Assembly: GCF_900215205.1 (NCBI RefSeq)
Contig: NZ_OBDY01000003.1
Location: 234,993 to 298,992, forward strand
DNA: 64,000 nt
DNA from: Paractinoplanes atraurantiacus
GTDB lineage: Bacteria > Actinomycetota > Actinomycetes > Mycobacteriales > Micromonosporaceae
Direction: 5' to 3'
Numbering within the stretch: position 1 is the first letter of the stretch; each line of letters begins with the position of its first letter. The notes under the pieces were generated by a model. The model was not told the DNA's origin, did not search any database, and worked only from the letters and a program-made list of their open reading frames with translations. This document shows, one piece after another, positions 46,363-57,219 of this stretch. A program made the position numbers and the translations under genes.

Positions 46363-46453
46363 CGTGCTAGTGATTCGCGGCTGTTTGACCACTTTAGGGG
46401 TATTTGGATCTGTATGGTCGGCGCAGTTAGTGCTGATACAGGGGGAGAAGCTG

Positions 46454-49400
46454 ATGCGGGTGTTCCGCACCATCCTCGGGATGCTGCTGCTGGCCATCGG
46501 CCTGCCGTCGCTGCTCGCCGGCGCCGGCCTCTGGGCCGCCATGCAACACCGCGACCCCGGCGGCGCCTTCAGCGGCGAACTGCAGCGGCTGTCCACACCC
46601 GGCTACGCGTTCGTCGTCCCCGACGTCGACCGCCTGCTGCGCGCGGACGCGTCCTTCACCCGCATCGGCGACACACAACTGCGCCTGCGGGCCGACACCC
46701 AGGCCGGCCCGGCGTTCGTCGGCCTGGCGCCCACGGCCGAGGTGCAGCGCTACCTGGGCGGCGTGCCGTTCTCGGTCGTCCGCACGGTCGACATCGGCAC
46801 CGGAGCCCTTCCGGTGGCGACGACCTTCAACCGCGGCCGTACGGCCCCGGCCACGCCCCCCACGCGCAACGACTTCTGGACCAGGAGCGGCCTGGGCCAG
46901 GTCTCCTGGACACCCGGCGACGTGACCGGCGGCCCGTACAGCCTGGTCGTGATGACACCGACGGCCCAGCCCGGCCTGCAGTTGACGGCCACGGCCGAGA
47001 TCCGCCCCGGCTGGCTCAACTCGAGCACGTGGGGCCTGCTGACCTTGGGCACCCTGCTGCTGATGGTCGGCCTGATCACCGTGGCCTGGCCGTCCCGCCG
47101 CCGCGAAATCGTCTACGTGGTGGAGCCCAGCCAGGTCCCGGCCCTGATGGCGGCGATCGGCGCCCCCATGCCCACGGCCGCCCTGACCCCACCCCGCCAC
47201 GGCGGCGCCCACCGCCCCCGCACCTTGGCCGACGCCCAGAAGCGCCACCCGGCGGCCCTGCCCCCGGCCCTCGACTGGCCCCCCTCCGGCGAGCCGGCCA
47301 TGGCCGGCGCCCGGCCGGCGCTCGGCCCCGCCGCCTCCGGCTCCCCACTCTCCCCGGCGGGCCCCTCGGCGTCGTCCCTTTCCCCGTCGTCCATATCTCC
47401 AGCCGGCACGTCAGCTTCGACCCTTTCCTCGGCTTCAGCCGCCGCGCCTGTCTCTCCGACCGGCCCGTCGGCGTCGTCCCTTTCCTCCCACTCCGGCACG
47501 ACAGCTTCCAGCGCTTCGCCTGAAGGACCTCTTGCCGCCGGACCGGGCGTCGACCGTGCGGCGTCTTCGGCCGGTGCTTCGTCCTTGGCCACGGGATCGC
47601 TTTCACCTTCCGATGGCGCCGCTGCGACGGCTTCACCCTCGGCCGGTGCGCCGCTTTCGTCCTCGGCCGGTGTGCCGCTTTCGTCCTCGGCCGGTGTGCC
47701 GGCTTCGCTCTCGGCCGGTGCTCCGGCGCAGGCGGGGCCCGGGTCGGCGCCGCAGGGACGTCAGCCGGACGGTCCGCCTTCGGCCGCCGAGTACGCGGCC
47801 GCCACGGCGATTCCCGGGCGTTCCCCGCGACCGAACGGTCAGCGAACACCCGCCCCCGGCGAACCGCTGAGCTACATCGGCGCGCACTCCGCCGCCGGCC
47901 CGGTCTCGCTCCCGATGGGCGACGCCCCCAGCATGCCCGACCCACTGTTCGGCGGTCGCCCCGAGCGAGCCGCCCGCCGCCACGCGGCCGCCCCCACCGA
48001 CATCCCGATGTTCCGGGCCTCCGCGGTAGGAGCCTGGGTCGCCGAAACCGCCCCCGCCCGGGCCCGCCAGGCCGAGGCCCAGGCCGCCGCCCGGGTGGCC
48101 GAAGCCGCCCGCCGCCGAGCCGCCGCCATGGAGAACGCACCCTCCAACCTGGCGCCCGCACCGGACACCACCTCGCCGGCCCCGGCCCCCGAAGCACCGG
48201 CCACGGCCACCCCGGAACCGGCCGGTTCCCGCTTGATGACCAGCGCCGACCTTCCCACCGCGCCCCCGTCGGCGGACTCCGGCCCACGTCCGGCTACGCC
48301 GCCTCGCCGCCCCGCCGGAACAAAGCCGTCCCCGCGCCCAACCCGAAACCCGGCCGAAGCCGCTCCCACACCCGACACCTCCATCACCCCGACCGAGTCA
48401 CCGGCGCAGCAGGCGCCTGACGTTGCGTCCGTGGCGGACGGTTCCGTCGCGTCGGCCGAGTCGGTGGCCGACCGCGGCGATCGCGCGCCGGGCGAGGCCG
48501 TTGGGCCGGTCACTCATGGACGAGCGAACGTCGGTTCGGCCGAGCGGGACGATCTCGAGTCGGCAACCGGTTCGGCGCGGGCGGACGAGACGATCGACGT
48601 CGATGCTGTGGCGGCCGCCTACGCGGCGGGCGCGGCGGATGCTCGGGCATTCCGCGGTGAGGCGGCGGGCTCGGCGGGCGAAGCTCCGTCGGAGGTCGAT
48701 GCGGGCATGGCCGGGTCCGTCGGCGATCGGGACCTTGCGGCCAGCTCCGCCCGCGCCGCCAGTGGGAGCTCGGAGGCGTCACGTGATCCGCGCATGGCGG
48801 GTCAGCGGGTTTCCATGGTTACCGGGCCCAAGGCCACCGACTGGGCCGCGACCGGCCTGCGGCGGTCCCAGCCGCCGCGGGTTGGCCGGCAGTCCCCGTC
48901 GAACGGCCGGCCCTCTCCGAACGGTCGCCCTTCGCCCTCGCCCGCCGGGTTCGTGGCCAACGGCTCGGGTCCTGACGTGGAGGCGCCGGCTGGGTTCGTG
49001 GCCAGCGGCTCGGGTCGCGACGTGGAGGCGCCGGCTGGGTTCGTGGCCAGCGGCTCGGGTCGCGACGTGGAGGCGCCGGCTGGGTTCGTGGCCAGCGGCT
49101 CGGGTCGCGACGTGGAGCCGCCCGCCGGACTCGCGGCGAACGGGTCCATCTCTTCGTCCGGCGGGTTCGGGGCTGACGGCTCCGCCCCGGACGTGGCACC
49201 GACCGCGGACCGAAGCCGTCGTTCGGCTGGGGCGCCCTCACCCGCTGACGTGGCTCGGTCGCTTCACCGTGATGGGGTGGGAAGCCGCGGAGTGAACGGT
49301 GGTTCAGCGGTCGGTGGCGGGGCTCACCACGGCAGTGATGTTGATCGCGGAGAGGGTGTCGATTCTGGCGTTCGGGGCGATTCGGCCGTACATGTTGAAT

Positions 49401-50869
49401 CGGTCGTCGCGGTTGACCCGGCTTCGCTGGGGAAGGTGACGACTTCGGGTGAGTACGCGGAGAGCTTCCGCGCGGAGCCCGGAACGGCTGTGTCAGGCAG
49501 CGCTGGCGGAACGGCTCGCGACGACGAGCAGGCCGCCGAGCCGATGCGGGGGCAGCCCACGAAGCTTTACCCGGAGTCGGCCACCCCATCCGCCAGTGGG
49601 GGCCGGCCGGCCGTGGAGGCCGGCACCGAGGCCACCGGCGAAAGCCAGGGCCCGGTGCCGGTTTTCCCGCCCCGCGCGGAGAACCGCGCGGAGAACCGCG
49701 CGGAGAACCGCGCGGAAAGCGGTGCAGAGAGCGGCGCGGAGAACGGCATCGACGAGCAGCAGCCCGAGAACGGGCGCCGCGAGGGCGTGTCCGAGGGGAA
49801 GCCTGCCGCAACCACAGCGCCGGCGCCGCCGAGGCCTGCCGTGCCCCAGCCGCCCGCACCGTCGCGGCCGATCGTTCCTTCACCGGCCCGTCCGTCGCCG
49901 GAAGCATCGGCCCGTCCGTCGCCGGAAGCGAATGCCACCGAGGCCGCGGCACCCGCCGAACCGGCCGCGCAGTCCACGGACGGTGCGGTCACGAAACCGG
50001 CCGCCGAGCCGCTGGCGGAGTCCGGTGCCGGGTCGGTGCCCGAGCCGGTCGGGGACTCGAGTGCTGCGGCGGCTGGTGGTGCTGAAAGTGCAGCGTCCGG
50101 TGAGGAAGCCGCTGAAGGTGCGGCGGCAGAGGGAGCAGAGATGCGGGGTTTGGGGCGGCGGCAGGTCGAGGGTGGTCTGCTTGCTCAGGCGCAAGGGCGT
50201 GTCGAAGGTGGGATGCCTTCCACCTTTGCCGGGCGGCTGCCGGGCAACGGGTCGGGCCGCCCGGCGCCGGTTGCCTGGCGGCGGGCCGCGGAGAGTGTGG
50301 CGGCGCGGGCGGCGGCCGCAGCCGAGAACGCCGGGGATGAGGCCGAGCAGCCAGGGGTGACCGGGCGGCCGGGACGGGCTTCGGGGAAGACGGCGCGGAG
50401 CCGCGCCGTTCGGGCGAAAGCGCCGGAGCTGGAGCCGTCGGTGGCCGCTGATGTCGAAGAGGAGCCGGTCGCCAACGGTAAGGCGGCGCCGGCACGGGTC
50501 GCCAAGTCGTCGGCCAAGCCTGCCGTGAAGGCAGCGGCTCCGGCCAAGAGCACGTCGGCCCGGTCGAGTGGGGCCGCGAAACCGGCGGCGCCGGCCAAGA
50601 CGCCGGGGCAGGCGAAGGCGGCGAAGGCGGCCAAGGCCAAGCCGGCCCGGCAGCCGGATGTTCCGGTGCGGACCAGCACGGGCACCATTCCGGCTCGCAG
50701 CGGCACCCCGACCGGCTGGCTGGCCGCCTATCAGAAGGAAGCCGCGGAGCTGCTCGCCGCCTCTGGTCAGCGCCGCCGGCGCCGGACCACGGCGACCACC
50801 GACGAGCAGCCGGCGGAGAATACGGAGTCGACCCGTCGACGGCGTCCGGCTCCGCCCGCCAAGGACTGA
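46454..50869 (+). CDS. Very long, mostly disordered membrane-anchored protein
   Basis: A 1,471-residue protein in one unbroken frame. A membrane helix at about residues 5-27 ([17 protein letters not shown]), a folded outside domain of about 160 residues and a second helix at about 193-213 ([19 protein letters not shown]) place the remaining 1,250 residues in the cytoplasm. That part is low-complexity Ser/Pro/Ala/Gly sequence with tandem repeats, then a Lys/Ala/Pro-rich histone-H1-like segment near 1340-1405. It ends with a more ordered [19 protein letters not shown] and an Arg-rich tail. GGGGGAG precedes ATG 46454. Function unknown; scaffold or nucleoid-to-membrane tether are guesses. Confidence 0.8.
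48949..49134 (+). repeat. Four tandem 45-bp repeats inside the long disordered protein
   Basis: The 45-base unit encodes [15 protein letters not shown]. The two central copies are identical at the DNA level and the outer two differ by a few bases, so the expansion is recent. Shorter in-frame repeats occur at about 47640-47725 (24 bases) and 49674-49740 (12 bases, AENR). Confidence 0.9.
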
Positions 50870-51835: not shown

Positions 51836-51912
51836 GGTGGTCGTAGCTCAGCTGGTAGAGCACCGGGTTGTGGTCCCGGGGGTCGCGGGTTCAAGTCCCG
51901 TCGATCACCCCA
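51836..51912 (+). tRNA. tRNA-His (anticodon GUG)
   Basis: Full cloverleaf: acceptor GTGGTCG / CGATCAC, D-arm GCTCAGCTGGTAGAGC, anticodon loop TTGTGGT with GTG, T-arm GCGGGTTCAAGTCCCGT. The extra G at -1 (51836) faces the discriminator C, the identity element of tRNA-His. CCA is encoded. Confidence 0.97.
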
Positions 51913-51960: not shown

Positions 51961-54174
51961 TCAGCCGCCCATCGAGGCGCCCACGCCGTTGCCGGTGGTC
52001 AGGAAGATGGTCTTCGGCAGGGTGCCCGACGGTGGGCGTGGGGCCTCGGCTGTGGTCGGGTCGACGGAGCGGAAGCTGGCGGCGGACCAGTCGTCCTCCT
52101 GCCAGCTGTTGCGGGTCTCGGAGGAGCCCTCGGCCAGGCCGGCGGGCTCGATCCGGTTGTCCACGGCGGCGTTCGTTCGCAAGGTGGCGGGGCCTCCGGG
52201 GAGGGCGAATCCGGAGCCGCCGTTGCCGTAGGCGGTGTTGTTGGTCAGAGTCAGGCCGGTGACCTGGCCGGCGTCGTCGGTGAAGCCGTGGTTGCCGTTG
52301 GTCCACGCCGCGTTGTGACGCAGGGTGTGTGGGGCGCCGCCGGTCAGGACGAAGCCGTTGCCGCCGTTGTCGTAGGACCAGTTGTATTCGACGGTCACCG
52401 GGTCGGCGAAGTTGAGGTCCAGGCCGGACTGGGCGTTGTGGGCGAAGCGGTTGCCGCGGACGCGGTTGCCGGTGCCGTCGCCGAACATGAAGCCCAGGCC
52501 GATGCCGTTGCCGTCGGTGAAGTCGCTGTCGAGGACCTGGTTGCCGGTGGTGCCGGGGTCGCGCAGCAGCAGGCCCGAGCGGGCGTTGTTCCGCATCAGC
52601 AGGTGGCGGAAGACGGTCGATCGGCAAGAAGAGCAGACGTACGCGTGGCCAGCCGAATTGATCACCGAGAGGCCCTGGACCGTCCAGCTCACGGTCTGTT
52701 GCGTCACGGCCCATTCGGTGTCGGGCAGTGACGACGCATCGATCACAGGCCGTTCGTCGCGGTAGTTGCTCAACGTGACGCCGGTGGCCTTCGACGAGAT
52801 CGTGAGGCCGGACGACAGGCGATAGGTCCCTCCGCGCAGCGCGATCGTCTGGCCGGTCCGGGCCGTCGAGACGGCCTTCTGGATCGAGACGTACGGGCGG
52901 GCGAGCGACCCGTCGCCGGAGTCCGACCCGTTCGGCGCCACGAAGACGTCGGCCCGCTGCACGCCGAGGCCCGCGACCGGCAAAGCCGAGGGGGACGCGG
53001 TGGTTGACGAGGCATTGGGTGTACGGCTGCGGACCGCCGCCCCCGGAGCAAGCGGTCGCACCGCGCCGGACGGTGGAGCGACGGCCACCGGCGGCGGAGC
53101 CGTGGACGGGGTCTCGTAGACGGCATAGACGAACCCGCCACCGGCCACGGCCGCCGCGGTCGCCGTGACGGCCGCGATCTTGGCCTTGAAACCGAGCCAT
53201 CCGGAGGCCGCGCCGGGCCCCGACAGGGCACCGGTGCCCGAGCCCGACAGCGCGCCGGCGGCTGACCCCGACGCGGCGCCGGCGGCAGACCCGGACACGG
53301 CGCCGGCGGCAGACCCGGACACGGCGCCGGCGGCCGGCCCCGACAGCGCGCCGAGCGCCCCCGCGGCCGACGCCGACAATGCCGCGGCGGCTGGGGGTGA
53401 CAGCACCGCGGCGGCCACCGCGAGCGGGACCGGCAGGGCGGCGACGCCCAGCAGCAGTTCCTCCGGGGCGACCAGGCCGTGCCGGGCCAGGACGCATTGG
53501 GGGCAGTTTCGAACATGGCGCACGAGCCGCTTGCGCCACAGTGGATCGGCGACCCCGTTCCACCGGCGCACTTGTTCCTGCAATGACGGGCAGCGCGGCC
53601 GGGACCGCAGCGCCCGGACCACCGAGCGGGCCGCGTCGAGCTGGGCCTTCATCCGCTGCACCCGCACGGCCGCGTGTTTGGGCTGCACCTCCAGGGCCGC
53701 CGCCAGCTCCGGCCGGCTCAGCTCGCCCGCCGCCTCCTGCCACCACAGGCCGAGCAGTCGTCGGTCGCCGTCGTCGAGCCAGTGGGTCGCCTCGATCAGT
53801 TCGCGCCGCTGTTCGGCCACCACCAGCTCGGCCGTCGTGCGCTCGGCGAAGTCGCCCACCGGGTCGGGCACGTCGAACGACAGCGTGAGCCGCGGCGCCG
53901 ACTTCTGCGAGCGGAAGTGCATCTGGATCTGCCGGTACGCGATCGCGATCAGCCACGACCGGAACCGGGCGGGCTCGCGTAGCGTCGGCAGGCCGCGCAG
54001 GGCCCGCAGCATCGTGTCCTGCACCAGGTCGTCGACGTCGGGATGACCGTCCAGCGCCCGCCCGACGATGTTGTAGATCAGCGGCAGGTGCTCGGCGATC
54101 AGCTCGTCGCGGGCCGCCGCGTCCCCGGCCTGCGCGTCGAGCACCAGGGAGGGCGCGATCTGACTCTGAGTCAC
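51961..54174 (-). CDS. Transmembrane ECF sigma factor fused to a pectate-lyase-like beta-helix
   Basis: A 737-residue single frame. Residues 25-95 and 125-180 are ECF sigma regions 2 and 4 (PDVDDLVQDTMLRALRGLP; RMKAQLDAARSVVRALR). Residues 220-227 are HVRNCPQC, the HxxxCxxC pattern of zinc anti-sigma domains. Then follow a hydrophobic stretch (240-262), an Ala/Gly/Ser repeat linker (262-325), a clear membrane helix (332-352), a Pro/Thr linker, and from about 425 a right-handed parallel beta-helix starting FVAPNGSDSGDGSLARPY, like PL9 pectate lyases. With one membrane crossing the beta-helix lies outside. GTG 54174 has GGGAGG upstream. Divergent from pectinase genes; probably a one-protein pectin sensor. 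ECF sigma factors with fused zinc-finger, membrane and carbohydrate-binding parts are known in actinobacteria; this beta-helix version I cannot place. Confidence 0.9.
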   Translation of the reverse strand: MTQSQIAPSLVLDAQAGDAAARDELIAEHLPLIYNIVGRALDGHPDVDDLVQDTMLRALRGLPTLREPARFRSWLIAIAYRQIQMHFRSQKSAPRLTLSFDVPDPVGDFAERTTAELVVAEQRRELIEATHWLDDGDRRLLGLWWQEAAGELSRPELAAALEVQPKHAAVRVQRMKAQLDAARSVVRALRSRPRCPSLQEQVRRWNGVADPLWRKRLVRHVRNCPQCVLARHGLVAPEELLLGVAALPVPLAVAAAVLSPPAAAALSASAAGALGALSGPAAGAVSGSAAGAVSGSAAGAASGSAAGALSGSGTGALSGPGAASGWLGFKAKIAAVTATAAAVAGGGFVYAVYETPSTAPPPVAVAPPSGAVRPLAPGAAVRSRTPNASSTTASPSALPVAGLGVQRADVFVAPNGSDSGDGSLARPYVSIQKAVSTARTGQTIALRGGTYRLSSGLTISSKATGVTLSNYRDERPVIDASSLPDTEWAVTQQTVSWTVQGLSVINSAGHAYVCSSCRSTVFRHLLMRNNARSGLLLRDPGTTGNQVLDSDFTDGNGIGLGFMFGDGTGNRVRGNRFAHNAQSGLDLNFADPVTVEYNWSYDNGGNGFVLTGGAPHTLRHNAAWTNGNHGFTDDAGQVTGLTLTNNTAYGNGGSGFALPGGPATLRTNAAVDNRIEPAGLAEGSSETRNSWQEDDWSAASFRSVDPTTAEAPRPPSGTLPKTIFLTTGNGVGASMGG
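53215..53350 (-). repeat. 24-bp tandem repeats in the linker of the sigma fusion
   Basis: Consecutive 24-base units encode variations of GSAAGAVS (minus strand), with at least two nearly identical copies. They lengthen the segment between the anti-sigma-like motif and the membrane helix. Confidence 0.8.
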
Positions 54175-54269
54175 GACACCTCCCGGCAACACATCGAACA
54201 TCATCAAGCGCGAAAAGCGTGACACAGCAGGTGGCGATAGGCCAGCAAACAACTTCGGCAAGTTTTTGT

Positions 54270-54284
54270 TGTCGCCCGGCGACA
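54270..54284. promoter_or_regulatory. Palindrome in the divergent pectin-locus promoter region
   Basis: TGTCGCCCGGCGACA has perfect 7-base arms around one base. It lies 96 bases upstream of the sigma-fusion start and 90 bases before the pectinesterase start, where a shared regulator could act on both. Confidence 0.4.
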
Positions 54285-54341
54285 CCAGCATCTACCAGGA
54301 TGCCGCGTCCCCCAGCGCGGTCACAGCGCAGCGTAACCGAA

Positions 54342-54355
54342 TGGGAGCGCTCCCG
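54342..54355 (+). promoter_or_regulatory. CebR/LacI-type operator before the pectinesterase
   Basis: TGGGAGCGCTCCCG contains the perfect 12-base palindrome GGGAGCGCTCCC (54343-54354), matching the CebR box known from Streptomyces cellulase genes. It lies just before the ribosome-binding site GAGAGGA, where a bound repressor would block transcription. No LacI gene is in the window. Confidence 0.75.
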
Positions 54356-54373: not shown

Positions 54374-55774
54374 GTGAGACGTCTCGTCGTGGCCGCCTTG
54401 GCGGTCGCCGTCCCCACCGCCGCGATCGTCTACAGCGTCCTGCCCGCGGCGGCGGCCACCCTGCCCGCCACCAACGGCATCTATCAGCTCAAGGTCACCA
54501 AGAGCGCCAAGTGCATCGACGTCCCGGGCGCGTCGAGCGCGAACGGCGCCCTGCTCCAGCAGTGGGGCTGCACGACCGGCGCCGCCTGGCAGCAGTTCAA
54601 GTTGCTGCCAAATGGCGCAAATTACTCACTGCAGAATGTCAGCAGCGGCAAATGCATCGATGTCCCTGGAGCGAGCACGACGAGCGGCGTCCAGCTTCAG
54701 CAATGGGGCTGCGCGAGCAGCCAGGCGAATCAGCAGTGGCGCCTGAACCCCAGCGGCACCAACACGTTCCAGATCATCAACGTGGGCAACGGTCTCTGCA
54801 TCAGCGACAAGGACGCCTCCACCGCGTCCGGCGCCGCGATCATCCAGGAGACGTGCACCGCCAACAGCAACAAGCAGTGGGCTTTCGTCACCGAAGCGAC
54901 CCAAGCGGCCACGGTGGCGAAGGACGGCACGGGTCAGTACACGACCGTCCAGGCCGCCATCGACGCCGTCCCGGCCAACAACACGACCCGCCGCGTGATC
55001 ACCATCAAGGCCGGGACCTATCGCGAGATCGTCACCGTCCCGTCCAACAAGCCGTACGTCACCCTTCAAGGCCTCGGCGGCAGCGCGAGCCAGACGCTGA
55101 TCGTCAACAACCACAGCAGCGCCGGCGGCTACGGCACCTCGGGCAGCGCGACCGCCTTCCTCGACGGCCACGACTTCGCCGCGACCAACCTGACCTTCTC
55201 CAACGACTACGGCGAGGGCAGCCAGGCGGTCGCGGTCAACCTCAACGCCGACCGCTCGGTCTTCACCAACGTGCGCTTCCTCGGCAATCAGGACACGTTC
55301 CTGGTCAACAACAACCGGTCGTACGTCAAGAATTCGTACGTCGAAGGCACCGTCGACTTCATTTTCGGCGGCGCGACCACCGTCTTCCACGGCAGCACGA
55401 TCCACGAGAAGCGCACCAGCGGCGGCCCGATCACCGCGGCCAGCACCGACGCCGCCAAGACGTACGGCCTGCTCTTCTACCAGTGCACGATCACCGGCGC
55501 CACCAGCAACGTGACCCAGCTCGGCCGCCCGTGGCGCCCGAACGCGCAGGTTCTGTACCGCGAGTCGAACCTCAGCGCCACGATCAAGAACGCCCAGCCC
55601 TGGACCGACATGTCCGGCAACACGTGGCAGAACGCCCGGTTCCTCGAATACAAGAACACCGGCTCCGGTGCCACCGTCAACGGCAACCGGCCGCAGCTCA
55701 GCGACGCGCAGGCCGCCAACTACACCCCGCAGAAATATCTGGCCGGCACTGATGGCTGGAACCCGGTCGGTTGA
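54374..55774 (+). CDS. Secreted pectinesterase with ricin-type lectin domain
   Basis: A 466-residue exported enzyme: signal peptide (residues 1-28, RRLVVAALAVAVPTAAIV ... AAAA), ricin B-type beta-trefoil (about 32-168, with three QxW-like units such as QQWGC and NKQWAF), and a CE8 pectin methylesterase domain (about 172-462). Catalytic motifs are GNQDTFLVN, VDFIFGGATTVF and LGRPWRP. It demethylates pectin, preparing it for the lyase encoded next. GTG 54374 follows GAGAGGA. The gene is under the CebR-type palindrome. Confidence 0.95.
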   Translation: MRRLVVAALAVAVPTAAIVYSVLPAAAATLPATNGIYQLKVTKSAKCIDVPGASSANGALLQQWGCTTGAAWQQFKLLPNGANYSLQNVSSGKCIDVPGASTTSGVQLQQWGCASSQANQQWRLNPSGTNTFQIINVGNGLCISDKDASTASGAAIIQETCTANSNKQWAFVTEATQAATVAKDGTGQYTTVQAAIDAVPANNTTRRVITIKAGTYREIVTVPSNKPYVTLQGLGGSASQTLIVNNHSSAGGYGTSGSATAFLDGHDFAATNLTFSNDYGEGSQAVAVNLNADRSVFTNVRFLGNQDTFLVNNNRSYVKNSYVEGTVDFIFGGATTVFHGSTIHEKRTSGGPITAASTDAAKTYGLLFYQCTITGATSNVTQLGRPWRPNAQVLYRESNLSATIKNAQPWTDMSGNTWQNARFLEYKNTGSGATVNGNRPQLSDAQAANYTPQKYLAGTDGWNPVG

Positions 55775-55788
55775 GAGGGATCAAAACC

Positions 55789-57219
55789 ATGAAAAAGCCG
55801 ATTTTGTACGCCGCGGCGCTCGCCCCCGCGTTGATCATCGTCGCCACGAGCGTGCTCCCGTCGGAAGCCGCCGCCCTCCCCGCGACCGGTGGCACCTATC
55901 AACTGAAGGTCACCAAGAGCGGCAAGTGCATCGACGTGCCGAGCGCGTCGAGCGCGAACGGCGCCCTGCTCCAGCAGTGGGGTTGCACGACCGGCGCCGC
56001 CTGGCAGCAGTTCAAGTTGGTCGCCGCGGGCAGCAACTACCTCCTCCAGAACGTCAGCAGCGGCAAATGTGTCGACGTTCCCGGGGCGAGCGCGGCCAGC
56101 GGCGTACAACTGCAGCAATGGGGTTGTGCCTCTGGCCAGGCCAACCAGCAGTGGCGCCTGGCCGCCAGCGGCACGAACACGTTCCAGATCATCAACGTCG
56201 GTAACGGTCTGTGCATCAGCGACAAGGACGCCTCCACGGCGAGTGGTGCCGCCATCATCCAGGAGACGTGCACCGCCAACAGCAACAAGCAGTGGGCGTT
56301 CGAGGCTTCGAATCAAGGCCGCACCTGGCCGTCCACTCCGGACGGATTTGCCTCCACCGGCGGCGGCACCACGGGCGGCGCGGCCGGGCCGACGGTCACC
56401 GTCAGCACGATGGCCGACCTGCAGAAGTACGTCACGGCGACCACCCCGTACGTCATCAAGGTCAATGGGGCCATCACCATCACGCCCAAGGGCACCGAGC
56501 TCAAGGTGCAGTCGAACAAGACGATCGTGGGGGTCGGCACGAGCGGTCACATCGTCGGCGGCGGCTTCTTCCTCGGTACGGGGGTACGCAACGTCATCAT
56601 CCGCAACCTCACCATCCGTGACACCGCGATGCCGGACGACGACCCCGACGACAAGGTGTACGACTACGACGGCATCCAGATGGACACGGCCGACCACGTC
56701 TGGATCGACCACAACACCATCACGCGGATGAACGACGGCTCGATCGACAGCCGCAAGGACACCAGCTATCTGACCGTGTCGTGGAATGTGCTGTCGAGCA
56801 ACAACAAGGCGTTCGGCATCGGCTGGACCGACAACGTGACCGCGCGGATGACGATCCACCACAACTGGATCCACGACACCAATCAACGCAACCCCAGCGT
56901 CGACAATGTCGCCCTGGCTCACCTCTACAACAACTACCTGCAGAACATTTCGTCGTACGGCAATCTCTCGCGCGGCAGCACCAAGCTCGTGCTGGAGAAC
57001 AGCTACTTCGACAACGTGAAGAACCCCTACTACAACGACACGTCCGCCGCCCAGCTCAAGCAGAGCGGCAGCATCGTCGTCAACAGCTCCGGCAAGCAGC
57101 AGACGAACGGCTCCGCCTTCACACCCAGCAGCTACTACTCGTACACGCTGGACCCGGCGGCGGACATCCCCAGCCTGCTCAAGACCTACGCCGGCCCGCA
57201 GGCCACCATCGGCCAGTAA
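55789..57219 (+). CDS. Secreted pectate lyase (PL1) with ricin-type lectin domain
   Basis: A 476-residue exported enzyme: signal peptide (KKPILYAAALAPALIIVATS), a ricin-type lectin (about 34-168) almost identical to that of the upstream pectinesterase, and a family-1 pectate lyase beta-helix (about 190-470). Signature motifs are DHVWIDHNTI, LTVSWNVLSS and HHNWIHDTNQRNP with the catalytic Arg. It cleaves demethylated polygalacturonate by beta-elimination, normally with Ca2+. It starts 14 bases after the pectinesterase stop behind GAGAGGGA, so the two are one operon. Confidence 0.95.
   Translation: MKKPILYAAALAPALIIVATSVLPSEAAALPATGGTYQLKVTKSGKCIDVPSASSANGALLQQWGCTTGAAWQQFKLVAAGSNYLLQNVSSGKCVDVPGASAASGVQLQQWGCASGQANQQWRLAASGTNTFQIINVGNGLCISDKDASTASGAAIIQETCTANSNKQWAFEASNQGRTWPSTPDGFASTGGGTTGGAAGPTVTVSTMADLQKYVTATTPYVIKVNGAITITPKGTELKVQSNKTIVGVGTSGHIVGGGFFLGTGVRNVIIRNLTIRDTAMPDDDPDDKVYDYDGIQMDTADHVWIDHNTITRMNDGSIDSRKDTSYLTVSWNVLSSNNKAFGIGWTDNVTARMTIHHNWIHDTNQRNPSVDNVALAHLYNNYLQNISSYGNLSRGSTKLVLENSYFDNVKNPYYNDTSAAQLKQSGSIVVNSSGKQQTNGSAFTPSSYYSYTLDPAADIPSLLKTYAGPQATIGQ

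Follow-up and report, generated by a model that had tools for sequence, protein, structure and literature searches.

The 64,000-nucleotide stretch of Paractinoplanes atraurantiacus DNA analyzed here (hereafter, the window) contains a gene for a 737-amino-acid protein (51961..54174, minus strand) that combines an extracytoplasmic function (ECF) sigma factor, an anti-sigma zinc motif, a predicted membrane helix and a PL9-like beta-helix in one chain. This gene is transcribed divergently from two genes for pectin-degrading enzymes, a CBM13-pectinesterase (CE8; 54374..55774, plus strand) and a CBM13-pectate lyase (PL1; 55771..57219, plus strand) that overlaps the pectinesterase stop, both with signal-like N termini. 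A first-pass annotation, made from the letters alone, had described one unbroken 737-codon frame without stating its strand. Our analysis confirms the frame and places it on the minus strand, where translation gives a single open frame (the plus strand contains five internal stops). The open frame extends to 776 amino acids; an internal in-frame GTG at 54174, following GGGAGG, gives 737 codons ending at the stop at 51961, and the same start position is found in several homologues. Because the arrangement is full-length in 59 homologues aligned with the window protein (60 proteins in all, the 59 having been picked by us from 120 listed), the fusion is not a sequencing error, and the missed stop or frameshift raised by the annotation as an objection is excluded. 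The 120 listed proteins include P0101 from Actinoplanes missouriensis, a species in which deletion mutants can be made (PMC10733313).

The N-terminal region matches the NCBIfam sigma70-ECF profile TIGR02937 at residues 21–179 (53638..54114, minus strand; 66.6 bits against a cut-off of 42.9) and sigma structures in the PDB, and Pfam places Sigma70_r2, corresponding to sigma-2, at residues 25–91 (E 1.5e-15, above cut-off). No separate Pfam sigma-4 match was found in the window protein, but sigma-4 is supported because TIGR02937 covers residues 21–179; the protein thus has both the layout (sigma-2 and sigma-4 only) and the profile of an ECF sigma factor. In the AlphaFold model, confidence is about 90 for the sigma part, except near residues 91–110, and about 97 for the beta-helix.

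A query with the sigma and zinc-motif region (the chassis) found at least 210 matches in at least 59 of 60 genomes of the genus, genome-search counts being lower bounds throughout. We examined 141 of these matches: the window and 140 stretches chosen in descending order of score, a few being passed over, irrespective of their neighbours. Their C-terminal regions were of GH128 (48), beta-helix (40), AbfB (40), Lcl_C (7) and rarer or masked (6, one of them GH99) types.

All 141 fusions carry the pattern C-x(23-27)-H-x3-C-x2-C. In the window protein, it reads C195-x24-H220-x3-C224-x2-C227 (residues 195–227; 53494..53592, minus strand; from alignment and pattern), with C195 upstream of the HVRNCPQC segment, and the four residues are invariant in the 60-protein alignment. 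Class I zinc anti-sigma (ZAS) motifs have the form H/C-x24-25-H-x3-C-x2-C and lie downstream of sigma. The window protein fits this pattern, which predicts a zinc site; none of the Pfam anti-sigma models matched it. Further downstream, an uncharged 19-residue stretch, IAAVTATAAAVAGGGFVYA, is predicted from hydropathy and charge to form a membrane helix (residues 333–351; 53122..53178, minus strand). Its Kyte-Doolittle mean is a borderline 1.60 (at least 1.6 in 31 of the 40 beta-helix fusions), and AlphaFold2 places a low-confidence helix at residues 331–343, within a region (258–400) whose pLDDT is mostly under 50. Also between the sigma domain and the beta-helix is a Pro-, Ser-, Thr- and Ala-rich linker. 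In all 40 beta-helix fusions, but in only 22 of 40 AbfB fusions, positive charge is greater on the N side of the membrane helix, predicting an N-in, C-out topology in which the beta-helix is extracytoplasmic, as the first-pass annotation had supposed.

The ectodomain (residues 408–737; 51964..52953, minus strand) begins at FVAPNGSDSG and contains a Pfam Beta_helix match (residues 495–631, E 3.5e-16), so that all four parts named by the annotation are supported by Pfam, NCBIfam or alignment or, for the borderline membrane helix, by hydropathy and charge. It is a parallel beta-helix with sequence similarity to Pel9A, and PL9 enzymes are its closest folds, which bears out the lyase-like fold proposed earlier. 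Of the accompanying suggestion that this fold could bind or even cut pectin, the second half is not supported for the window protein. V609 occupies the position of Pel9A Lys273, which we take to be the PL9 catalytic Lys, and Lys is found there in 0 of the 60 aligned proteins. It is also absent from 38 of 38 readable beta-helix loci of the genus, a set that overlaps the 60 (of the 40 loci, L035 is masked and L046 is cut short in the catalytic region). At the positions taken to bind calcium in PL9, the window protein keeps D551 and D586 and has Q582 and S583 in place of the other two; Asp occurs at 551 in 60/60 aligned proteins, at 582 in 9/60, at 583 in 16/60 and at 586 in 48/60. The PL9 catalytic set of Lys and calcium Asp is thus incomplete in the window protein. 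The Lys is kept in 2 of 13 readable fusions from named organisms, Catellatospora tritici and Streptomyces xylophagus, both of other genera.

Since a PF22842 search of the P. atraurantiacus genome at 1e-5 gave no match, control PL9 enzymes were taken from other genomes of the genus. All 13 PL9 frames without a fused sigma keep the Lys and Asp-Asp (Lys was read from the GFK motif, the aligner having gapped beside it, and 3 of the 13, off-motif, were read separately; at control locus L163 a sigma-like match lies in a separate frame, unfused to the PL9 frame). Pel9A (1RU4) and a rhamnogalacturonan lyase (5OLQ/5OLR, which we assume to be PL9) show kinship to the window ectodomain in fold and sequence. 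Both keep the Lys and the Asp pair, whereas the window ectodomain, which is fused to a sigma, has lost both. These comparisons suggest that the ectodomain is a catalytically degenerate PL9 beta-helix, a receptor and not an enzyme. A Cys-x2-Cys pair (C514/C517) was also observed in 39 of 39 readable beta-helix loci; Cys residues are not at those positions in 10 aligned PL9 control enzymes.

Neighbouring enzymes differed among sensor classes. CE8 or PL1 genes lie within 6 kb of 23 of 40 beta-helix loci, 0 of 40 AbfB loci, 0 of 48 GH128 loci and 1 of 13 others, and arabinoxylan-type genes (GH62, GH10, GH43, GH27, GH127 or GH30) lie within 6 kb of 35 of 40 AbfB loci and of none of the other 101. 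These counts cover all 141 loci, with enzymes labelled by single-sequence seeds from Pfam-labelled proteins and not by a per-protein Pfam scan; neighbouring gene clusters were compared at 133, eight having been dropped where the gene caller missed the fusion. The P. atraurantiacus genome itself holds chassis paralogues with a Glyco_hydro_cc domain (C23; presumably GH128) and an AbfB arabinofuranose-binding domain (C14), the latter adjoining GH62 and GH10 genes. Sensor class tracks the sigma tree (made by a quick method, with the partly masked L098 left out), with 8 label changes versus 71.8 in shuffles: one each for beta-helix, GH128 (support 92) and Lcl_C and two for AbfB.

Matches were also found family-wide (at least 65 of 121 genomes and 21 of 44 genera) and, at a stricter cut-off, phylum-wide (at least 10 of 396 genomes, the nine besides P. 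atraurantiacus all belonging to one other genus). The best 80 of 356 named loci from a public scan, mostly from Streptomyces and Micromonosporaceae, clustered into AbfB (45), beta-helix (14), GH128 (6) and rarer (5) types, with the remaining 10 left without a class. Seven of the 14 beta-helix loci are records already counted in the genus survey. The seven new ones come from two Catellatospora, Micromonospora, Dactylosporangium, two Streptomyces and Actinoplanes xinjiangensis, and six of these have CE8 in their ~3-kb flanks. The survey of actinomycetes called for by the first-pass annotation finds the beta-helix fusion both within the genus (40 of 141 loci) and beyond it.

The region between the fusion gene and the pectinesterase contains a two-block, promoter-like element, TGTTGTC-N15-CATCTACC (54267..54296, plus strand), pointing at the pectinase genes. 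In aligned intergenic regions of beta-helix loci, the two blocks are conserved and the 15-base spacer is unconserved. The shortened form TGTTGTC-N15-CATCTAC has exactly two sites in the 10.9-Mb genome: the window locus and a site upstream of a CBM13-PL11 rhamnogalacturonan lyase. Across the 60 genomes there are 38 exact sites, versus 3 for the pattern read backwards (a control used instead of the reversed dyad search, which mirrors the real set and is uninformative). Thirteen of the 38 adjoin a fusion; the other 25 constitute an independent test because the pattern was derived from linked sites. The gene near these unlinked sites is CE8 (11), PL11 (8), PL1 (3), GH43 (1) or none of these (2; L194 in G035 and L211 in G005, neither with a pectin gene), as judged from 22 fetched sites, two assessed by coordinates (G046 and G052, CE8 label) and the PL11 site already described. 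At the unlinked sites scored, L194 excepted, the element points at the downstream gene, whose first candidate start is 0–75 bp away. Exact elements occur in 25 of 33 genomes with a beta-helix fusion (as known from the examined loci; further matches could add to the 33) versus 2 of 27 others, whose sites are the two that lack a pectin gene. When only CE8-bearing genomes are counted, the element is present in 25 of 33 with a beta-helix fusion versus 1 of 17 without. One Streptomyces and one Dactylosporangium locus have copies one mismatch off, starting TGTTATC. The connection between pectin and transcription anticipated by the first-pass annotation gains further support from the pectinase neighbours and this element, and our data suggest that the window protein switches on neighbouring and distant pectin-degradation genes.

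AbfB loci have an element of their own, TGTTAT-N17/18-GGTCG (23 sites in 15 of 40 AbfB loci, 0 in the 101 others). Searched as TGTTATS-N16/17-GGTCG, it has one exact site in the P. atraurantiacus genome, between the AbfB fusion and GH10 (0 for the control); this site is not independent because its locus was in the pattern-deriving set. The region upstream of the window pectinesterase also contains, between the element and the gene start, a palindrome, TGGGAGCGCTCCCG (54342..54355), one base off the CebR consensus TGGGAGCGCTCCCA given in PMC5332605. Its 12-base core (≤1 mismatch) occurs up to 320 bp upstream of the fusion at 15/40 beta-helix, 6/40 AbfB, 0/48 GH128 and 0/7 Lcl_C loci. Two further dyads were dropped: CAACGGC-N14-GATGACC, which recurs in 13 GH128 loci and resembles coding sequence, and, as a promoter candidate, CTTGA-N15-CTGGCA, which has a conserved spacer and looks like an operator. 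In 22 of the 40 AbfB loci (as at L087 14955 and L122 10557), the latter, with its spacer largely conserved, precedes arabinoxylan-type genes.

We interpret the window protein as a pectin receptor and an ECF sigma factor in one polypeptide that drives pectin-degradation genes, an explanation to which, taken as a whole, we assign a probability of roughly 0.7. The sequences show the domain architecture and its homologies, the missing catalytic Lys, the neighbouring genes and the distribution of the element; from these we infer ligand binding, sigma release and a sigma-promoter match. Outside the membrane, the degenerate PL9 beta-helix would bind pectin or rhamnogalacturonan fragments. When ligand is absent, the zinc-type anti-sigma segment would keep the sigma inactive in cis at the membrane, as its motif and proposals for ECF52/53 suggest. 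Binding of ligand would then free or expose the sigma domain, probably through proteolytic cleavage in or close to the membrane helix, and the freed sigma would guide RNA polymerase to TGTTGTC-N15-CATCTAC promoters of secreted pectin-degrading enzymes (predicted to be the divergently transcribed CE8-PL1 pair and the PL11 rhamnogalacturonan lyase encoded elsewhere in the genome). The CebR-like operator near the pectinesterase start may add cello-oligosaccharide control of the pectinase genes.

Several observations weigh against this explanation. Seventeen of the 40 beta-helix loci lack both CE8 and PL1 within 6 kb, and an exact element is missing from 8 of the 33 beta-helix genomes. When up to two mismatches are allowed, the P. 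atraurantiacus genome has 17 element sites versus 15 for the backwards control; only exact or near-exact sites are informative because this count is at background. The usual ECF-type autoregulation is not seen: the element points away from the fusion gene, and none of the 40 beta-helix loci has a copy (≤2 mismatches) directed at that gene. The hydropathy of the membrane helix is low and its model is poor, the genomes and loci are related (such that the statistics overstate independence), and both the sigma-element and the ectodomain-pectin links are predicted from sequence.

The predicted nature of the sigma-element pairing, the CebR-like palindrome in the same intergenic region and the genomes without an exact element would also fit a scheme in which the element serves another pectin regulator, a repressor or activator that binds DNA, and the targets of the fusion sigma lie elsewhere. 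We consider this unlikely, given that the element is non-palindromic with an unconserved spacer, is aimed at the downstream gene, 0–75 bp from its first candidate start (L194 excepted), and tracks the sigma among CE8-bearing genomes, while AbfB sigma loci have a parallel element with the TGTTRT block in common.

An ectodomain that is still an active lyase, with the sigma answering its own cleavage products or substrate turnover, is a less probable account. It would be in keeping with the PL9 folds, the retention of D551 (60/60) and D586 (48/60) and the Lys kept in two named fusions, and it is least unlikely for those two, from C. tritici and S. xylophagus. The Lys is missing from every aligned protein and readable genus locus, however, two of the four calcium-ligand positions are mostly lost, and the unfused PL9 frames of the genus keep Lys and Asp-Asp without exception. 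We regard as very improbable a sensor that answers envelope or redox stress through its zinc motif, with the beta-helix only a cell-wall anchor and the pectinase linkage mere hitch-hiking. The anti-sigma-kind zinc motif of all 141 fusions and the conserved C514/C517 pair would suit such a sensor, but sensor class and neighbour enzyme class agree for two different sensors, and this agreement extends to other genera and to unlinked element sites.

Other members of the survey and other parts of the locus had features of their own. Unlike the beta-helix class, the GH128-type fusions (e.g., L009) keep NEP and TE[FWLY] motifs in 48 of 48 cases, which we take to be those expected for the two catalytic Glu of GH128, and neighbouring gene clusters are common to 47 of the 48. 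In another actinomycete genus (L150–L161), the same sigma chassis carries, in place of a carbohydrate enzyme, what by eye resembles a CAP/SCP-type domain or an unnamed domain; Pfam named no ectodomain in L124 and L136, which resemble these proteins. A different beta-helix is attached to the chassis at L158, a locus from the phylum search. In the window, the fusion gene is closely followed by a tRNA-His gene (51837–51912, plus strand); such a gene is found within 1 kb of 5/40 beta-helix loci versus 0/48 GH128 and 0/40 AbfB loci. At 46364–50869 (plus strand), a 1501-amino-acid open frame rich in Ala, Pro, Gly and Ser has N-terminal hydrophobic segments by eye and no Pfam match.

Fusions of a sigma factor to a carbohydrate-related ectodomain have been predicted from genomes before (ECF52/53). 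PMC5826349 and PMC8999054 describe ECF52, the group named by the first-pass annotation, as sigma factors that also carry a zinc finger, a membrane helix and a carbohydrate-binding domain, with proteolytic release proposed. In its member SCO4117 of Streptomyces coelicolor, as in the window protein, a single polypeptide holds a sigma, a zinc finger, a membrane region, a linker rich in Pro and a carbohydrate-related ectodomain, but in SCO4117 the ectodomain is the carbohydrate-binding module smart00776 and not a PL9-like helix (PMC5826349). SCO4117 is assigned a pleiotropic role in development there, and the motif reported for it, CSGYN-17bps-SRHA, is unlike the window element. ECF53 and ECF48 resemble the window protein in their C-terminal fusions to membrane anti-sigma regions, and some ECF52 and ECF53 have predicted glycosyl hydrolase or carbohydrate-binding domains for which experimental validation is described as pending (PMC10766802); the accessible parts of the reviews PMC8999054 and PMC10766802 give no lyase-type ectodomain, matched regulon or promoter for ECF53 or ECF48. 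IutY (ECF243, Pseudomonas putida) likewise joins a sigma to a membrane anti-sigma region and is activated by proteolysis, according to PMC8999054, but functions in iron-siderophore cell-surface signalling in a different host. The SigI/RsgI systems of Clostridium thermocellum and Pseudobacteroides cellulosolvens also place a dedicated sigma under an extracytoplasmic sensor module, and pectin-degrading genes, rgl11A among them, are linked to SigI3 and SigI11 in PMC6056542 and PMC12203970. Unlike the window protein, these systems consist of two proteins, with a SigI structure that differs from ECF sigma and another promoter. Nothing resembling the lyase-type fusion, and no lyase-type ectodomain with a matched regulon, was seen in the literature searched, subscription papers not included.

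For one such sigma fusion, our analysis proposes pectin as a candidate substrate, argues from the lost catalytic residue that the ectodomain is a receptor, and predicts a promoter and a regulon in the same genome, so that each link of the proposed pectin switch is testable. If the interpretation is correct, its components would offer parts for pectin- or arabinoxylan-controlled expression in actinomycetes, and the protein would show how an extracellular enzyme can be made to serve as the input of a one-polypeptide transcription switch. More broadly, and with confidence only slightly better than even, we propose that actinomycetes may possess modular one-protein polysaccharide channels, in which exchangeable ectodomains (dead PL9, AbfB, GH128, GH99, Lcl_C and others) sit on one chassis, the main classes largely following sigma clades and two having their own promoter code and regulon: TGTTRTC-N15-CATCTACC for pectin and TGTTAT-N17/18-GGTCG for arabinoxylan.
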